64,000 nucleotides of DNA, taken from positions 38,928 through 102,927 of IMG/VR virus record IMGVR_UViG_3300028800_000006; one strand, written 5' to 3'. Shown here piece after piece: positions 2,921 through 64,000 of this stretch. Both the position numbers and the translations under genes were made by a program. The notes under the pieces are model-generated. The model had not been told where the DNA came from, did no database searches, and worked only from the letters and a program-made list of their open reading frames with translations. Source of the DNA: a virus. Every line of letters starts with the position of its first letter. The first letter of the stretch is position 1.

Positions 2921-3334
2921 ATGGTTTCAGTCACCAACACGAATCTAGGCTTCTCGATCACTTCGGCGATCAAGAGCGTCGGCAAGACCGCGATCAAGGC
3001 GCAGGGGGCTGTGTTCAAGGCGACTGGTGTGGCCTCGAAGATCCCGGGCGTGTCTCAGGGAGCGAACGCGATCGTGCCAGGCTCCGGACGGATCCTCTCG
3101 GCCGGCGGCCAGCTCGACTCGATCGTGGGCGACAAGCTCTTGAGTGTGGGGAGCGGCAGCGGGGGCACGACGACAGCGACTGCTGTTGATCCTGGAACGG
3201 GCGGCGATCCTGGTGTGCCAGCGCAGCCGGGGAAGCGCGGCGGCTCGAAGCAGCTCATCAAGGGTGTGCCGAACACGACGTTGGCCATCGCAGGCGGCGG
3301 GCTCCTGGTGCTGCTTCTCGTGCTGAAGCGGTAG
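2921..3334 (+). CDS. LGFSITS-type single-span membrane protein
   Basis: 137 aa. The N-terminus carries LGFSITSAIKSVGK, nearly the same as the protein at 49540. The middle is Gly/Ala/Ser-rich, and the C-terminus is one hydrophobic span ending in Leu-Lys-Arg (LVLLLVLKR). The shared plan (conserved N-terminal motif, low-complexity middle, C-terminal membrane span with a basic end) suggests a virion membrane component. GGAG precedes ATG 2921 at normal distance, so translation here is Shine-Dalgarno led. Confidence 0.7.
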   Translation: MVSVTNTNLGFSITSAIKSVGKTAIKAQGAVFKATGVASKIPGVSQGANAIVPGSGRILSAGGQLDSIVGDKLLSVGSGSGGTTTATAVDPGTGGDPGVPAQPGKRGGSKQLIKGVPNTTLAIAGGGLLVLLLVLKR

Positions 3335-6951: not shown

Positions 6952-7707
6952 ATGATCGATTTCAGCGCGATGAAGCTCGGCAAGCAGGCAGCTGTCCACG
7001 ATCCGCGCACGCTGCGGCTCGCCGACTACGTGACGAACGCGCTCAAGCCGCCTCCGCGCATCGACTGGAGCACGAAGGTCACGAACCTTGGGATGATGCT
7101 GAACGACAGCCTGGGCGACTGCACGATCGCGGCGGCGGGGCACATGATCCAGACCTGGACAGCCAACAACGGCAGCCAGATCGTTCTGCCCGACAGTGCC
7201 ATCCTGCAGGGCTACGAAACCTTCTGCGGGTACAACCCGAGCGACCCGAGCACCGATCAGGGCGGTGTGGAGGTCACGGTGCTCAACGGGCTGAGGAAGG
7301 TCGGGCTGGGCGGCCACAAGATCTACGCCTACGTGGCGCAGGAGCCGGGCAGCCGGGCGCACATCGAGCTGTCCGTCGACTTGCTGGGCGGCTGCTATCT
7401 GGGAGTCGAGCTGCCGCGCTCGGCGCAGAACCAGCGCGTGTGGAGCGTGCCTCCAGGCGGGCCGCACGGCGATGGCGCTCCCGGATCATGGGGGGGTCAC
7501 GCGATCCCCGCGGTCGCTTACGGGCCGGCAGGCATCACAGTCATCACGTGGGGGCAGCTCCTCACCATGACCTGGAAGTTCTTCACCACGTATTGCACCG
7601 AGGCGTACGGCGTGCTCAGCCAGGACTGGGCGAACGGCGCGAAGACTGCGCCGAGCGGCTTCGACTTCGCTCAGCTGCAGGCGGACCTGGCGGCCATCAC
7701 GGCGTAA
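6952..7707 (+). CDS. Papain-like (C1-type) cysteine peptidase
   Basis: 251 aa. NDSLGDCTIAAAGHMI at residues 51-66 places the nucleophile Cys57 at the start of a helix, and SWGGHAIPAVAYG supplies the catalytic His183. This is the typical arrangement of papain-like proteins found in phage and plasmid genomes. A very strong Shine-Dalgarno (AAGGAGG) lies upstream, so this gene is probably highly expressed. It sits between a lipoprotein and a GH25 lysozyme; cleavage of cell-wall peptides or virion proteins is inferred. Confidence 0.7.
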   Translation: MIDFSAMKLGKQAAVHDPRTLRLADYVTNALKPPPRIDWSTKVTNLGMMLNDSLGDCTIAAAGHMIQTWTANNGSQIVLPDSAILQGYETFCGYNPSDPSTDQGGVEVTVLNGLRKVGLGGHKIYAYVAQEPGSRAHIELSVDLLGGCYLGVELPRSAQNQRVWSVPPGGPHGDGAPGSWGGHAIPAVAYGPAGITVITWGQLLTMTWKFFTTYCTEAYGVLSQDWANGAKTAPSGFDFAQLQADLAAITA

Positions 7708-25577: not shown

Positions 25578-28634
<3,057 letters not shown>

Positions 28635-46850: not shown

Positions 46851-47068
46851 CAGCGTTTCTTCTCCCAGGGCCGAGCGCAGCCCTTGGCGTAGAACTGGTC
46901 CGTGAGTTGGTGGACCGTCGACCGCCGCGCAAGTCCTGTCTCGATCTGATCGAGCATCACACTTGCGATTTTGCAGTCTCCGGCGCGCAGCGCACCGCGG
47001 AACCTGCGGATCGCTTTTGCTGTGCTCGTGCGCCCTACGACATCGAATTGGTTGTGTCGAGCAGCCAT
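46850..47068 (-). CDS. Small basic helical protein, 72 aa
   Basis: ATG 47068 overlaps the stop of the transglutaminase-like gene. Arg/Lys-rich helices (TAKAIRRFRGALRAGDCK) and a basic end. No family recognised. Confidence 0.55.
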   Translation of the reverse strand: MAARHNQFDVVGRTSTAKAIRRFRGALRAGDCKIASVMLDQIETGLARRSTVHQLTDQFYAKGCARPWEKKR

Positions 47069-48555
47069 CAAGGCTCCGTCACGTCGAAGTCTCGATGCTT
47101 CGCCTGGGGCGGATGAACGCCGAACTTGCTCCGGCCTGGCAACGTCGTATCGAGCGCGATCCACTGGCGCGGGTTGTTCTTCGGGTAGCCCGCCAAGCAG
47201 TAGATGTGGTCCCACGTCGCGCCGGTGTTGGACGTGATGCGGAACCGCGTGTTGAAACCGTTCTCCATCGCGAGCACAGCGCACGCCACGGAATGGTCGT
47301 CGCACTGCCGTGTGATCACGTCGCACTCCGGCAAGTACACGCGACCGGTCGCGGTCATGATGTCGTAGGTCTCAGCCTGCTCGGGCTCGATCGCGATCGA
47401 CTTCACCTTCGCCCACGGCCGCCGCGTCGCCTCTGCGCGTACGGTCAAGCGATGGATTGGGTTCTTCCCCGCGCCTCCATGGTCAGCCAGTGTCGTCCAC
47501 GCCATCGAGTGCCCGAACATGCGCTTGAGCACGCGGTACTGCAGCGCCAGCGTGTGCGAGATGGTCGAATACACGAGGTTTGAGCCGTGCGTGCTCAGGC
47601 CGCCGTCACCCATCTCCATCGCGCGTAGAATGGTCGCGATCGTCTTCGGGCCGTACCGGAACGACGGCAGCCCCTTCTCGATGGCGGTCCGGCCCAGATC
47701 GTACGACTCGGCGAAGTCGCGCGCATGCAGCTTGATCTCGCGCGTCCGCTCCGTGAACGGAATGTCGCGTGCACGAAGGATCTCGATGACCCGCTCGCGA
47801 ATCATCTTGCGGTTCGCGACACCCGCAATCGACAGGTAGTCCTGCGGTCCGTTTTTCTTCTTGTTGCTGCGGCAGCCTTCAGCCAGGTACGCCCCGATCA
47901 GGAACGCCGTGGCCTCGTCCAGCTCATCGGCAGCGGCGCCGTCGAATCGGCGGGGCTGCAGCAGGTCATCGCCGAGTCGAATGTTGGCGATCTGGACCTC
48001 TTCCGCGTCCCCGTACGTCCCGCCCTCCGGCACGCGCAGGATCTTGTGCGTCGGGCTCAAGCGCAGCTCGTTGCCGTTGTCGATCCCGAGGCGGATGATC
48101 TCTTTCGGGCCGCGCTCCCACGTCTTCATGACGGGAACCCATGACTCGCCGTCATGGATCTCGTCTCCCACTTCGAGCTGCTCGACCGGCTCGAACCCGT
48201 CCCTGGTCAGGAACAGCGTGCCTTCGGGGAAGCAGTCTCCTCCCGCCATCTGCAGCGTCCGCCAGGCGGTCTGGAACGTGTCCTTGTCCGTGATGTCGCC
48301 CGTGTACCGCACGTTCTGCTTCACGAACTCGTAGATCGCGTTCAGCTCGCACGTGTCGTTGCGGGCCGGGCACCCCCGCGTGACCTCCAGCCCGATCTGC
48401 CGCATGCGCGGATCCTTGAGCCCGCCCACCGGATCGTTCCGGCGCCCAAATGCAGCGTCCCCCAACCACACCATGCGTTTCAGAATCGCCACGCGGTCAT
48501 CGAGCGTCCGCACGGTGTGTGCGCGAAGCTGCGGGCCGCCGTCGTAGAAGGCCAT
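47068..48555 (-). CDS. Transglutaminase-like cysteine protein interrupted by an intein
   Basis: 495 aa precursor. The mature part (residues 1-107 and 418-495, 185 aa) is transglutaminase-like: catalytic Cys418 in CDDHSVACAVLAM, His450 in ATWDHIY and Asp469 in WIALDTT. Such phage proteins may act as peptidases or crosslink virion or wall proteins. Residues 108-417 form the intein. Without splicing the catalytic Cys has no proper preceding GGD segment, so activity depends on splicing. First gene of the operon to 45679. Confidence 0.85.
   Translation of the reverse strand: MAFYDGGPQLRAHTVRTLDDRVAILKRMVWLGDAAFGRRNDPVGGLKDPRMRQIGLEVTRGCPARNDTCELNAIYEFVKQNVRYTGDITDKDTFQTAWRTLQMAGGDCFPEGTLFLTRDGFEPVEQLEVGDEIHDGESWVPVMKTWERGPKEIIRLGIDNGNELRLSPTHKILRVPEGGTYGDAEEVQIANIRLGDDLLQPRRFDGAAADELDEATAFLIGAYLAEGCRSNKKKNGPQDYLSIAGVANRKMIRERVIEILRARDIPFTERTREIKLHARDFAESYDLGRTAIEKGLPSFRYGPKTIATILRAMEMGDGGLSTHGSNLVYSTISHTLALQYRVLKRMFGHSMAWTTLADHGGAGKNPIHRLTVRAEATRRPWAKVKSIAIEPEQAETYDIMTATGRVYLPECDVITRQCDDHSVACAVLAMENGFNTRFRITSNTGATWDHIYCLAGYPKNNPRQWIALDTTLPGRSKFGVHPPQAKHRDFDVTEP
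47305..48234 (-). mobile_element. Intein with LAGLIDADG-type homing endonuclease
   Basis: 310 residues. Starts with Cys108 (CFPEGTLFLTRDGFEPVEQL, Hint block A), has block B-like NGNELRLSPTHKILR, and ends ETYDIMTATGRVYLPECDVI then TRQ before Cys418. The terminal residue is Gln and the usual penultimate His is Arg. Two LAGLIDADG-like helices (FLIGAYLAEG at 219-227 and ILRAMEMGDGGL at 309-320) mark a homing endonuclease. Inserted directly before the catalytic Cys of the host protein. Confidence 0.85.
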
Positions 48556-48604: not shown

Positions 48605-48634
48605 TTGACTCGACCCGTTGTCCCCACGTACGAT
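48605..48634 (+). promoter_or_regulatory. Promoter of leaderless type for 48642
   Basis: TTGACT (48605-48610), 18-nt spacer, TACGAT (48629-48634), 7 nt to GTG 48642. It settles the start of the following gene. Confidence 0.6.
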
Positions 48635-48641
48635 ATCCCTC

Positions 48642-49007
48642 GTGCTTGTTCAAGGGCCGCTCGGGTTCTCTCTCCCCTCCTCGATCACATCTGTCGCGAG
48701 GAGCGCGTACAGCGTCGCTTCTGACCCGCGTGTGCAGGCCAGCGCTGCTGTGGTGGGCACGCAGTTCGCCCCCGACACGACCGCGCAGGTGCAGCAGTAC
48801 GCGCGCACCGTCTCGCGCAGCATCCGCCAGGCCAACCGCGCATTCAACCCAGCGACGGGCCAGATGCCGCCGATGCAGCAGCCCCTGCCCGATCCTGGCT
48901 ACGATGACGCTGGCGGTGGCAGCATGCCGGTCCAGCACAGCAACATGCTCGTCTACGCAGGCATCGGTGTCGGTGCCCTGGTCCTCTTCCTTCTCTTGCG
49001 AAAGTGA
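48642..49007 (+). CDS. LGFS-type single-span membrane protein, 121 aa
   Basis: GTG 48642. N-terminal PLGFSLPSSITSVARSAYSV resembles LGFSITS proteins at 2921 and 49540. The middle is Gln/Pro-rich, and the C-terminus is a membrane span ending in Arg-Lys (AGIGVGALVLFLLLRK). Likely a virion membrane protein. GTGA overlap with the next gene. Confidence 0.7.
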   Translation: MLVQGPLGFSLPSSITSVARSAYSVASDPRVQASAAVVGTQFAPDTTAQVQQYARTVSRSIRQANRAFNPATGQMPPMQQPLPDPGYDDAGGGSMPVQHSNMLVYAGIGVGALVLFLLLRK

Positions 49008-49539: not shown

Positions 49540-50322
49540 GTGATCTTCGGGAACTCGGATGCTGCCTGGGTTGACGACGGCACCCTAGGCTTCTCGATCA
49601 CTTCGCCCTTCAAGAGCGTCGCCCACGCGGCCACCGCGGTCGGCAAGGGAGTCGCTCACGGGACGGTTGCTGCTGCGAAGGGCGCTGGGGGCCTCGCGCA
49701 GAGGTACGGCAAGACGGCCGCGGAGCTGGCCGTGCTACCTGTCGTCGAGGTGAACAAGGCCATCGTGGCGCCGGTGCTCAAGGCCACTGTCCTCCGCCCC
49801 GTCATCAGCCGGATCAACACGCTGAAGGACCGCCGGGCGAAGAAGCTGGCCTGGGACAACCGCAAGTCGACGACACCCACGCCCCAAGAGCGGAGTCAGG
49901 CCAGCAGCTGGACGAAGTCTCACCTGCGCAGCCAGGCGCCGCCGCTCGGGCTGATGATGTCGGTGCTGGCCGGGAGCGCCCCTCAGATGGGCCTCCGCGG
50001 CCTGGGCGAGCCCACCACAGCCACCATCACAGCCGCTGTGCCGGCGCTGATCGCTCTCCTGAACTCGATCCTGAAGAAGGCCAACAGCAGCGGCGACGCG
50101 CCCGAGCATGTGGGAGGCGGCAGCGGCGGTACAGCGGCCGGAGGCGAGAGTGGCGCTCCCGACAGCGGCAGTACAGCGTCAGACGGTGGCACGCCAGGTG
50201 GTGGCAAGCACGGCGCGCGATCCGTCAGCTCGTTGCCGCTCGGCCTCACGAAGAAGCAGCTCACGATCGGCGGCGCGGTGCTGGGCGGCGTCGTCCTGCT
50301 CGCGCTGCTCACCCGAAAATGA
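49540..50322 (+). CDS. LGFSITS-type single-span membrane protein, 260 aa
   Basis: GTG 49540. GTLGFSITSPFKSVAHAATA at residues 14-33 matches 2921-3334. A helical central part (VLRPVISRINTLKDRRAKK), a Gly/Ser-rich disordered linker (GGGSGGTAAGGESG), and a C-terminal span (LTIGGAVLGGVVLLALLTRK). Largest of the group; a plausible scaffold or membrane-vertex protein of the virion. Confidence 0.7.
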   Translation: MIFGNSDAAWVDDGTLGFSITSPFKSVAHAATAVGKGVAHGTVAAAKGAGGLAQRYGKTAAELAVLPVVEVNKAIVAPVLKATVLRPVISRINTLKDRRAKKLAWDNRKSTTPTPQERSQASSWTKSHLRSQAPPLGLMMSVLAGSAPQMGLRGLGEPTTATITAAVPALIALLNSILKKANSSGDAPEHVGGGSGGTAAGGESGAPDSGSTASDGGTPGGGKHGARSVSSLPLGLTKKQLTIGGAVLGGVVLLALLTRK

Positions 50323-53802: not shown

Positions 53803-55056
53803 CTACTCTCCGTCAAGATCGACACGAACGGTCTCACCGTACGGAGCATCGAACGGGCTGCTGCCGCAGATGCACCAGATCACGCTGTACGGAGGCTCTT
53901 CCTGTGGGTACCCTCCGCCGATCTCACCATCCGTCAGCGCGATCACCACCTCGGGCGTGGGCTTGCGCGCCGTCAGTGCGTCGAATCCAGGCGTCAAGAT
54001 CGTGCCACCACCCCCCTTGTACAGCTCTGCTGCATCTGCGAGAGACGCACACTCCTTGATGCCCTGCAGAGCGGCATCAACGGTACAGACCGTCACCGCC
54101 GCGCCAACTGCAGCCAGAATCCCCTGCAGCTCAGCCGTCGCACTACGGATACGCTCCCCCATCATCGACCCGGACAGATCCAACAGCACGCCGACCCGCG
54201 GCACGGCCGTGTGCTGTCCCGGCATGACCGGACGGCCGGGCCCGTACCCCACACCAGCTTGCCGACGCGACCGGCGCAGGAACGTGGTGTGCCCGACACC
54301 CGGTCGGTAGGCGATGGCGTCACGTACGAGCTGCCCGAGCCGCGTGCGCCAGTCCACCTTCGGCGGCACCAGCACCGTATCCGCCCACACCTCCAGGGAG
54401 CCCGGAACCGTGCCAGGATGCTTGCTGGCGTGCTCATGGACGGCCTGTGCGGTCTCCTTACGCAGCCGCTCCAGTTGCGCCTCCGAGCGTCCCTCCCCAC
54501 TTCCCTTGCCGGTTTTCTCCCCCGGCAGCGGATTGTGTGCACAGCCGCCGCACATCGGTCGCGGCATCTTCTTCGCGTTCTTCAGCAGTCGCCGGTAGCG
54601 CTCCTCCCAGATCAGGCCCGGCGGCTGCTGCAGTGTGGACGAGTAGATCCCGTCCTTGCCGATGTTCGGGTGCGTCTTCTCGAACGCCTTCTTCAGGTCG
54701 TCGTTGATGCATGCGTCCTGCGCCCGGTTGATGATCTCGTCATGCTCCCGTGGCGCTTGGATGGCCTCGGCACGGTCGTGATGATTGAGCAGCAGGTGCA
54801 TCGCCTCGTGCACGAGCGTGAAGGCCAGCTCGTCCACTGACTGCCGCGCCACGTAGTCGGCCGACCAGTACAGGATGCCGTCCTTCGTGACACCCATCGT
54901 TGCCCGCCCCGGGCCGAGCGCGGCTTCCATCGCCTCGGGCATCTGCCGGCGCAGCAGCCCACGCAGGATGGCTCCGCAGTAGGGGGCGAATCCGCTCCGG
55001 GCATCCGTGGCCCGGAGCATGGCCGCCGCCAGTAGTTGGTTGGGTGAGAGCGCCAC
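53803..55056 (-). CDS. VWA-like metallopeptidase (DUF2201-type)
   Basis: 417 aa from GTG 55056, 2 nt after the MoxR stop. The N-terminal metallopeptidase-like domain has HEAMH at 83-87 (HExxH zinc motif), followed by a Cys-rich stretch (MCGGCAHN). The C-terminal VWA domain has the MIDAS motif DLSGS at 293-297 with later Thr/Asp positions. This pairing with a MoxR ATPase is the classical MoxR-VWA chaperone couple, which remodels or matures target proteins. Confidence 0.8.
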   Translation of the reverse strand: MALSPNQLLAAAMLRATDARSGFAPYCGAILRGLLRRQMPEAMEAALGPGRATMGVTKDGILYWSADYVARQSVDELAFTLVHEAMHLLLNHHDRAEAIQAPREHDEIINRAQDACINDDLKKAFEKTHPNIGKDGIYSSTLQQPPGLIWEERYRRLLKNAKKMPRPMCGGCAHNPLPGEKTGKGSGEGRSEAQLERLRKETAQAVHEHASKHPGTVPGSLEVWADTVLVPPKVDWRTRLGQLVRDAIAYRPGVGHTTFLRRSRRQAGVGYGPGRPVMPGQHTAVPRVGVLLDLSGSMMGERIRSATAELQGILAAVGAAVTVCTVDAALQGIKECASLADAAELYKGGGGTILTPGFDALTARKPTPEVVIALTDGEIGGGYPQEEPPYSVIWCICGSSPFDAPYGETVRVDLDGE

Positions 55057-55058
55057 GA

Positions 55059-56231
55059 CTACTTCCCGATCCCCGCCGCGGTCAGCATCGGCAGCAGCTC
55101 GCCCATGATCCGCTTGTAGTCGGCGTCCTTCTGCATCTGCAGGCCCGCCTGCAGCGCGGCCCGCGCCGGGGACACCACGTAGTCCGGCACGTCCTTCGAG
55201 ATGCGTCCCACGAGCCTCCAGAACTCCAGGCCGCGCTGCTCGCGCCTCACGGCCTTCTTCGGGATCACCAGCGCTGAGCAGGCACCCAGGACAGCCAGCG
55301 TGCGGTCGGGCCGGCGCTCGTCGTGAGCGAACTTGATGTTGCCATCCAGGATATCGGCCGGGCTCGGCAGATCGGCGTTCTCTGTCCACGTGCGGAACTC
55401 GGAGACCCAGCCGCGCCCTACGAAGCCAGAGAGCAGCGTGTCCGTGTCGGACTCGGACAGGCCATGCACGGTAGCGGAGGCCAGCGCCGTGCACGCGTAG
55501 GTGACAGTCCGGTGAGACGGCCAGGCGCGCTCACCCCCGCCGCGAGCCGGGCGCTTGTACAGCAGCTCGGGGCGCCGCACGATGAACCCGGACACGAGCC
55601 CGCGAGCGCTCGCCTCCGCGTTCGGCCACATCTCCGCGACCCGCGCTTCGAGATCGGCCGCAGTGATGTGGTCGGCCTGGGCCGGGGAGAAGCCTCCCAG
55701 CAACGCGCTGGCCCAGTCCCCGGGCTCCAGGCCGCTCATGTCATAGTGCCCAAAGCGGTTCGCCAGAGCCGGCGCCAGGTCCCAGCCGCCCGCGGCATCA
55801 CGCACCTCGTTGGCCGCGCCGATCACGCGCACGCCTTTCGGCATGGTGTACGAGCCGAGCGTGCGGAGCTGGACCAGCCCGAGCAGCGGCGCCTGGATGG
55901 CCGGGGGGGCGGTGTTCAGCTCGTCCACGAACAGCAGGCCACGTCCTGCAGCGGCAAAGTGCTGGACGACATCGGCTGGGGGCGGGTAGTGCAGGTAGCC
56001 GTCAGAGCCCGGCACGGGTACCACGCCAAATCTTGCTTCGCCTTGTTCTGCGGGCGACATGCGCATGAAAGGCAGCCCCAGCATCTTCGCCAGAGACGCG
56101 ATCATGGAGGTCTTGCCGGTTCCTGGGCTTCCCCAGACAAGCCCCGGCAGGCCATAGTGCCCCTCTGGGGAAATGCAGAACAGGAGGGCGCGGAGAATGG
56201 CGTGGTTGATTTCGTTCGGTGCGTTGGACAT
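55059..56231 (-). CDS. MoxR-family AAA+ ATPase
   Basis: 390 aa. Walker A GSPGTGKT at 34-41, Walker B LLFVDE at 99-104, sensor-1 region with VIGAANEV, and an arginine-finger-like ANRF. It belongs to the MoxR group, which acts with VWA proteins such as the one encoded next to it. Phage genomes rarely carry this pair; it may mature virion proteins or reprogram a host complex. GAAAGGAAAAACGCC leader in front of ATG 56231. Confidence 0.85.
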   Translation of the reverse strand: MSNAPNEINHAILRALLFCISPEGHYGLPGLVWGSPGTGKTSMIASLAKMLGLPFMRMSPAEQGEARFGVVPVPGSDGYLHYPPPADVVQHFAAAGRGLLFVDELNTAPPAIQAPLLGLVQLRTLGSYTMPKGVRVIGAANEVRDAAGGWDLAPALANRFGHYDMSGLEPGDWASALLGGFSPAQADHITAADLEARVAEMWPNAEASARGLVSGFIVRRPELLYKRPARGGGERAWPSHRTVTYACTALASATVHGLSESDTDTLLSGFVGRGWVSEFRTWTENADLPSPADILDGNIKFAHDERRPDRTLAVLGACSALVIPKKAVRREQRGLEFWRLVGRISKDVPDYVVSPARAALQAGLQMQKDADYKRIMGELLPMLTAAGIGK

Positions 56232-63180: not shown

Positions 63181-64000
63181 CTACTCCGCGTCTTCCGGCT
63201 CTTCGTCCTCCCCGAGATCCTCGGCTTCGAGCGCGGTGCCGATCGCCGCCACGCACGCGTCCTGGTACGTGGGCTGCGCGTCTGGCACGAGACGCTCCAC
63301 CAGCACCTGGATCTGCCCGGCGTCGAGCAGCGAGATCGCGGTGGGCACGGTCCCCCCGAACCCCTGCACCTGCCCGCGGGCCTGCAGCACGTACTTCGCC
63401 ACCTCGCCCGGCGGCGGCAACGTCTTGCGCAGGTTCTCCACGTAGGGCATCAGCAGCGAGCCAAACAGCTCCGCGTCCGGAACGCCTGAGATTGCGTTGA
63501 ACACCTCCGCAGGCTCTGCATCGCTCATCCGCTCGACCATCTCGGCGATCTGCTCGTGCGTCTGCGGCTTCGTCTTCCCCTTGCCTCGTTTGGTCTTCTT
63601 CCCCTCCGGCTGCACGAGGGGAATCACATCGCCCGTGACCGGGCCAGCGCTCGCGTCTCCCAACGCGCCGTTCATCGGAGCTTGAGCTGCTGCCCCGGGC
63701 CCAGCGGTCGCCGCCTTCATCTCGGCGATCTCGCGCGCAACGGTCGCGGCCGGCAAGCTCAGCGCACGCTTCCACCCCTCGCGCTGCACGTACGGCTGCG
63801 GGAAGCGCCGGCCATCGATCAGCACGAATTCATCCGTCTCCTTCTCGTAAGCCGTGCCCTCCGGGCGCGACCCATCCGAAGGCACCGGCGGGATCGCAGC
63901 GGGAGCCCCGCCCTGCAGCGGCGCCGCCTGCTGAAGCGGATTCGCCCGCGGCGCGACCTGACGGCGCTGCTGCTGAACCTGCTGCATCTGCGCGGCCTGG
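63181..64000 (-). CDS. Large acidic helical protein, 5' end outside the window
   Basis: At least 272 aa; an ATG at 63987 is in frame but the frame stays open to the edge (Gln-rich). Contains a Gln/Pro-rich start, a Gly/Ala/Pro linker, a Lys-rich patch (GKKTKRGKGKTKP), a helical region and a strongly acidic end (EAEDLGEDEEPEDAE). No family recognised; may be a scaffold or adaptor. Confidence 0.6.
   Translation of the reverse strand, partial: QAAQMQQVQQQRRQVAPRANPLQQAAPLQGGAPAAIPPVPSDGSRPEGTAYEKETDEFVLIDGRRFPQPYVQREGWKRALSLPAATVAREIAEMKAATAGPGAAAQAPMNGALGDASAGPVTGDVIPLVQPEGKKTKRGKGKTKPQTHEQIAEMVERMSDAEPAEVFNAISGVPDAELFGSLLMPYVENLRKTLPPPGEVAKYVLQARGQVQGFGGTVPTAISLLDAGQIQVLVERLVPDAQPTYQDACVAAIGTALEAEDLGEDEEPEDAE

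Follow-up and report, generated by a model that had tools for sequence, protein, structure and literature searches.

The window, by which we mean the whole 64,000-nucleotide stretch of viral DNA that was analyzed, comprises positions 38928-102927 of the 102,927-bp virus record IMGVR_UViG_3300028800_000006. On its minus strand, an open reading frame at 47068-48555 (ATG at 48555, stop at 47068) encodes a 495 amino acid precursor: a transglutaminase-like protein with an intein immediately ahead of its catalytic cysteine. The first-pass annotation gave the correct coordinates but omitted the strand, and the translation agrees with its placement of a 310 amino acid insert at residues 108-417, flanked by GGD^C and TRQ^C and with Arg416-Gln417-Cys418 at the downstream junction. 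The junctions read TLQMAGGD^CFPEGTLFLT...CDVITRQ^CDDHSVACAV, with CFPEG starting at residue 108 and CDDHS at residue 418. The features are as follows.

47068..48555, minus strand: precursor open reading frame, transglutaminase-like protein split by an intein, 495 aa (open reading frame and Pfam).
48235..48555, minus strand: N-extein, residues 1-107, last residues QMAGGD (ungapped 73% amino acid identity over 104 residues with the intein-free sister-virus protein).
47305..48234, minus strand: 310-aa intein spanning residues 108-417, a Hint splicing domain into which a LAGLIDADG domain is nested (block missing from the homologue, hhalign, AF2/Foldseek, clade support 100/97).
48232..48234, minus strand: Cys108, intein residue 1, predicted N-terminal splicing nucleophile, in block A CFPEGT (invariant in alignments).
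48046..48057, minus strand: block B S-P-T-H, Ser167 to His170 (His invariant, Ser replacing the usual Thr).
47875..47901, minus strand: LAGLIDADG motif 1, LIGAYLAEG, precursor residues 219-227 (AF2 helix 107-119 of the intein).
47602..47622, minus strand: LAGLIDADG motif 2, AMEMGDG, precursor residues 312-318 (Asp, intein D210, invariant in the clade).
47305..47370, minus strand: blocks F/G, TYDIMTATGRVYLPECDVITRQ, ending in Gln417 (aligned with kin ending ..WDISTDDHYVYLPEHDVTVSN, ..SQ and ..HQ).
47068..47304, minus strand: C-extein, residues 418-495, CDDHS..., with Cys418 as both +1 residue and nucleophile (no variation at C, H and D among ten intein-free relatives).

Several observations concern the rest of the virus record. 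An exact 127-base direct repeat is present at both ends (positions 1-127 of the record and 63874-64000 of the window), and the record is for this reason probably complete, representing a genome that is circular or terminally redundant. A DUF2201 metallopeptidase/VWA-like protein and a MoxR-type AAA ATPase are encoded side by side at window positions 53803-55494 (minus) and 55059-56231 (minus); the PHROGs label 'HNH endonuclease' on the former is unsupported by its Pfam domains. A 1018 amino acid open reading frame at 25578-28634 (minus) with many collagen-like GATGATGP repeats is likely to encode a fibre or surface protein. Three small proteins, at 49540-50322 (plus), 48618-49007 (plus) and 2921-3334 (plus), have a common N-terminal LGFS(I/L)... 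motif, two of them also having alike hydrophobic tail ends, and the group looks like one virion or membrane protein family. In the phrog_19005 protein at 6952-7707 (plus), DSLGDCTIAAAGH may be a cysteine-peptidase motif.

The insert is an intein with a Hint domain and a nested LAGLIDADG domain. With Pfam, Transglut_core matches the precursor at 24.0 bits (cut-off 23) and the match is broken at the insert, where Intein_splicing is found with an E value of 1e-5 and Hint_2 and LAGLIDADG_3 weakly, the intein, Hint and LAGLIDADG pieces all lying under the curated cut-offs. When aligned by hhalign with a profile of three cytosine-methyltransferase inteins and one phage RecA intein, the insert matches over 294 columns with a probability of 98.9 and an E value of 2e-17. 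The AF2 model of the insert, built with 17 intein homologues (pLDDT 85.5), matches the endonuclease-bearing TliVMA intein in Foldseek with an E value of 9e-19 and a TM score of 0.82; it also matches PI-SceI and, by parts, hedgehog Hint, gp41-1 and I-DmoI. A Hint fold is thus indicated by hhalign and by structural similarity to inteins with and without an endonuclease. Cysteines occupy intein position 1 (Cys108) and the +1 position (Cys418), and in the Thr-x-x-His of block B the histidine is present as His170 while the threonine is replaced by serine. Both LAGLIDADG motifs of the putative endonuclease retain an acidic residue, in line with the LAGLIDADG domain assigned by the first-pass annotation, and the fold resembles I-DmoI and PI-SceI. 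The insert is without a close relative (identity 35% or less), and its identification as an intein, also made by the first-pass annotation, is borne out by Pfam, hhalign, Foldseek and a 72% identical homologue that is free of it; the intein reading is no chance artefact.

The exteins together form a member of the transglutaminase-like superfamily (PF01841), with a Cys-His-Asp triad in the core and a Transglut_core match above the cut-off. Ten intein-free relatives, when aligned, all share N81, R83, Y84, D87, D107, C108, G123, H140 and D159 (spliced numbering), and the triad C108/H140/D159 corresponds to C418/H450/D469 of the precursor. The insertion therefore does lie exactly ahead of the catalytic cysteine, as first proposed, Cys418 being at once the invariant nucleophile and the +1 splicing residue. 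Because this nucleophile and the preceding GGD are 310 residues apart, the unspliced precursor can reasonably be expected to be inactive. The model of the sister-virus homologue (pLDDT 86) matches 3isr, 3kd4, TglA, PNGase, TG2 and pseudomurein endoisopeptidases in Foldseek, the best structural matches being 3isr and 3kd4, which are annotated as putative cysteine protease and protease. The predicted fold is transglutaminase-like/cysteine protease, and cross-linking, protease or amidase activity would be equally possible. A virion role is possible, given that an extein relative without an intein, gp34 of Salisaeta icosahedral phage 1 (SSIP-1), carries the annotation of structural protein.

The empty site was found in a sister virus, record IMGVR_UViG_3300042191_000299 (94.5 kb), which was reached through a packaging-type ATPase that is 63% identical. 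Across 182 residues, its 206 amino acid homologue and the joined exteins align without any gap and with 72% identity; at the junction the homologue reads GED^CDGH, and the genes adjoining the extein gene are conserved between the two viruses. Searching with a degenerate DNA pattern added relatives that also have no intein: they come from two other viral contigs, from Methylococcaceae and Bacteroidales, and from SSIP-1. Nine relatives beyond the sister, including the SSIP-1 protein annotated as structural, are likewise uninterrupted at the junction. Alignment of the precursor with seven relatives by MAFFT opens a single gap of 310 residues, exactly at D107/C418, and the in-frame insert is thus precisely missing from homologues, as is characteristic of an intein. 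Viral contigs scanned with single extein, precursor or A1 queries gave only SSIP-1 or no match, and genome contigs searched with an A2 query gave none. The first-pass annotation had suggested looking for intein-free homologues; these exist in the sister virus and further relatives, which contradicts the notion that the insert is always present.

Is the intein at this position a singular event? Allelic copies were sought with a DNA pattern in which the intein starts immediately after G-D, and five viral contigs (L128, L132, L134, L135 and L136) were found to encode a transglutaminase-like protein split at the same cysteine, with C-exteins beginning CDDQA, CDEAA, CDDLS or CDDAA. The fetched stretch of L128 ends ahead of the C-terminal junction and this copy is not among the complete ones. 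A sixth related intein at the same position was detected by profile search in a bacterial genome contig from the phylum of a Polyangia MAG, in 1 of 379 genomes of that phylum, and the profile search found none in the 399 genomes from the phylum of a Methylomonas genome. Neither the extein nor a kin precursor matched anything in plasmids, and the same precursor matched no phage record. The viral allelic inteins are 32-34% identical to that of the window and 43-80% to one another. In a tree that includes 26 other phage and plasmid inteins, the window intein and five other complete transglutaminase inteins form one clade (100/97), in which the window copy branches first. An origin from methyltransferase inteins, which gave the best local matches, was considered and rejected: a larger tree did not group the window intein with them, and once the alleles were added it joined these in a clade of its own.

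The C-termini of these inteins differ by individual residues: R-Q in the window copy, S-Q in L135, H-Q in L151, and S-N in L132, L134 and L136. An atypical Arg-Gln terminus had been noticed in the first-pass annotation, and it is confirmed; Gln417 itself is not unique, two other members of the clade also ending in Gln. As it is found in the window, L135 and L151 lineages, the C-terminal Gln looks like a family trait and no lone oddity, to judge from the sequences. The Arg416-Gln417 codons are CGG CAG, and because they are several substitutions from a His-Asn pair, Arg-Gln is not a single base error. An altered block, YLPExDV or WLPEADW, is present in all complete transglutaminase inteins. The block F histidine is kept in the kin (DDHYVY, SDHRVY, SDHCVW), whereas the window copy has ATGRVY; most kin have PEH, where the window copy alone has PEC. 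The window copy keeps the block F Asp and lacks the block F, PEH and penultimate histidines.

The distribution of the intein is patchy. On the extein tree, the window protein groups with its intein-free sister (100/99) and four intein-bearing proteins form another clade (99/96), so that intein presence requires at least two gains or losses; one change sufficed in 0 of 200 bootstraps. Among L132, L134 and L136, intein identity is 75-80% at a dN/dS of about 0.1, and extein identity is 52-77%. The L132 and L134 viruses are mutually syntenic and, in the stretches compared, have essentially only the extein gene in common with the window virus. Such a pattern is as would be expected of a homing element, the alternative being one ancient gain followed by losses. 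Between window and sister exteins, dN is about 0.21-0.23 and dS about 0.94-1.0, and for the C-extein alone dN is 0.23-0.25 and dS 1.3-1.6. The extein is thus under purifying selection, although pairwise dN/dS gives no insertion date and the constraint may pre-date the insertion. With the same reservation on dating from pairwise values, this constraint is what a spliced product would show. The third-position G+C of the window intein is 0.86, compared with 0.86-0.89 for the extein.

How might this precursor have arisen and spliced? Taken as a whole, the locus is very probably explained by a homing intein having invaded the gene of a phage transglutaminase-like enzyme. Its LAGLIDADG domain is likely to have recognized DNA in and around the codons for the invariant D-C active-site motif. 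Insertion would have occurred between the Asp and Cys codons. The residues present suggest class 1 chemistry, in which Cys108 would attack the GGD bond, Cys418 would then take the N-extein, and Gln417 would cyclize, freeing the intein; an S-to-N shift would create ...GGDCDDHS... in a 185 amino acid product with its nucleophile restored. The intein has probably persisted since imprecise deletion at this site would wreck the enzyme. We consider it likely, from its sequence, that the window precursor splices. The uncertain step in the window copy is the C-terminal one, because the penultimate and block F histidines are both missing. Inteins with a C-terminal Gln do splice: the reaction is slow in two Pol II inteins, those of Pyrococcus abyssi and Methanoculleus, and in the RNR intein of Chilo iridescent virus Gln works better than Asn (PMC4031507). 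Mycobacteriophage inteins often do without the penultimate His; in one of them putting it back slowed splicing, and the block F His may assume its role (PMC5050341). The window copy combines a penultimate Arg, a terminal Gln and a missing block F His, and we found no precedent with all three.

This combination makes it conceivable that the intein is decaying: it would have homed into the gene, C-terminal cleavage would have become inefficient, and most of the protein would be unspliced or cut at the N-terminal junction, leaving little active enzyme. The window copy is the only complete family member without the block F His and with Arg before Gln, and the slow splicing of the two Pol II inteins with a C-terminal Gln (PMC4031507) points the same way. 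We nonetheless regard decay as unlikely, since the reading frame is unbroken, neither the endonuclease motifs nor any catalytic residue of the extein has been lost, the third-position G+C of the intein matches that of the extein, and the terminal Gln is found in two other clade members. It is more improbable still that the intein is a conditional switch on activation, an idea raised by the first-pass annotation. Splicing would then be timed or triggered, for instance by redox through the PEC cysteine, so that the enzyme becomes active late in infection or in the virion. The nucleophile is indeed unavailable before splicing, other inteins are known to splice conditionally, and PEC in place of PEH is peculiar to the window copy. 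However, beyond this geometry no sequence feature indicates regulation, and the patchy distribution and intein-free sister argue that the enzyme needs no switch. That the insert is an integral, unspliced Hint-like domain is scarcely credible: its atypical C-terminal residues recall some bacterial intein-like domains, but it is exactly absent from the sister virus and nine other relatives, contains a nested homing endonuclease domain, and is followed by a +1 Cys that is the invariant nucleophile.

An intein at a catalytic cysteine is not unusual in itself, because many phage and plasmid inteins adjoin the catalytic Cys of cytosine methyltransferases. We collected such methyltransferase inteins (e.g. 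GFP^C...VHN^CQ) at twelve loci (L003, L044, L046, L047, L049, L060, L075, L087, L093, L107, L111 and L123), spread over gut phages, plasmids of Rhizobium and Euzebya, and many viral contigs. As in the window, one Cys serves both as +1 residue and in catalysis, in their case within FP^C...HN^CQ. These inteins match the window intein over its whole length with hhalign, but they are only 24-29% identical to it, have a canonical His-Asn and form a separate clade. In three viral contigs (L129, L130 and L131), papain-like cysteine peptidases have a mini-intein right ahead of what seems to be their catalytic Cys (GD^CFPAGT...VHN^CVSHS/CVSHG, with an NSW motif downstream). The TliVMA intein (PDB 7qsu/7qss) and PI-SceI resemble the window intein in having a Hint domain with inserted LAGLIDADG domain, Cys1 and Cys+1, but are at most 16% identical and reside in another host protein, and the window intein does not have their His-Asn C-terminus. 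The Pol II and Chilo iridescent virus RNR inteins likewise have Gln for Asn, in other host proteins, while the window copy additionally is without penultimate and block F His. Mycobacteriophage class 1 inteins such as that of the Bethlehem RDF end in Asn, not Gln. They resemble the window intein in the replaced penultimate His and in their location at functional centres, phage inteins being placed at active centres (PMC5050341), but their host proteins are those of DNA metabolism. The SSIP-1 gp34 protein has the D-C-D and the triad His and Asp of the extein, but no intein, is about 29% identical and possesses an additional C-terminal region.

In a literature survey, with subscription journals and preprints outside its scope, no transglutaminase-like intein host was found, and papers pairing inteins with transglutaminase, judged by titles and abstracts, concern biotechnology. 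The transglutaminase-like host protein and the allele family thus appear to be undescribed. There is perhaps an even chance that the full picture is right, namely an undescribed allelic family specialized for the catalytic Cys codon of transglutaminase-like genes, with a YLPExDV block, Gln-based cleavage as a family trait and a window copy devoid of the assisting histidines. A phage transglutaminase-like enzyme, kin of an SSIP-1 protein annotated as structural, would be a new class of host protein for inteins. The R-Q, S-Q, H-Q and S-N termini constitute a natural one-codon series in which replacement of Asn cyclization and of the assisting histidines becomes testable. Together with the loci collected for cytosine methyltransferases and, apparently, papain-like peptidases, the transglutaminase-like enzyme lends support to the rule that catalytic residues are the places where homing inteins insert.
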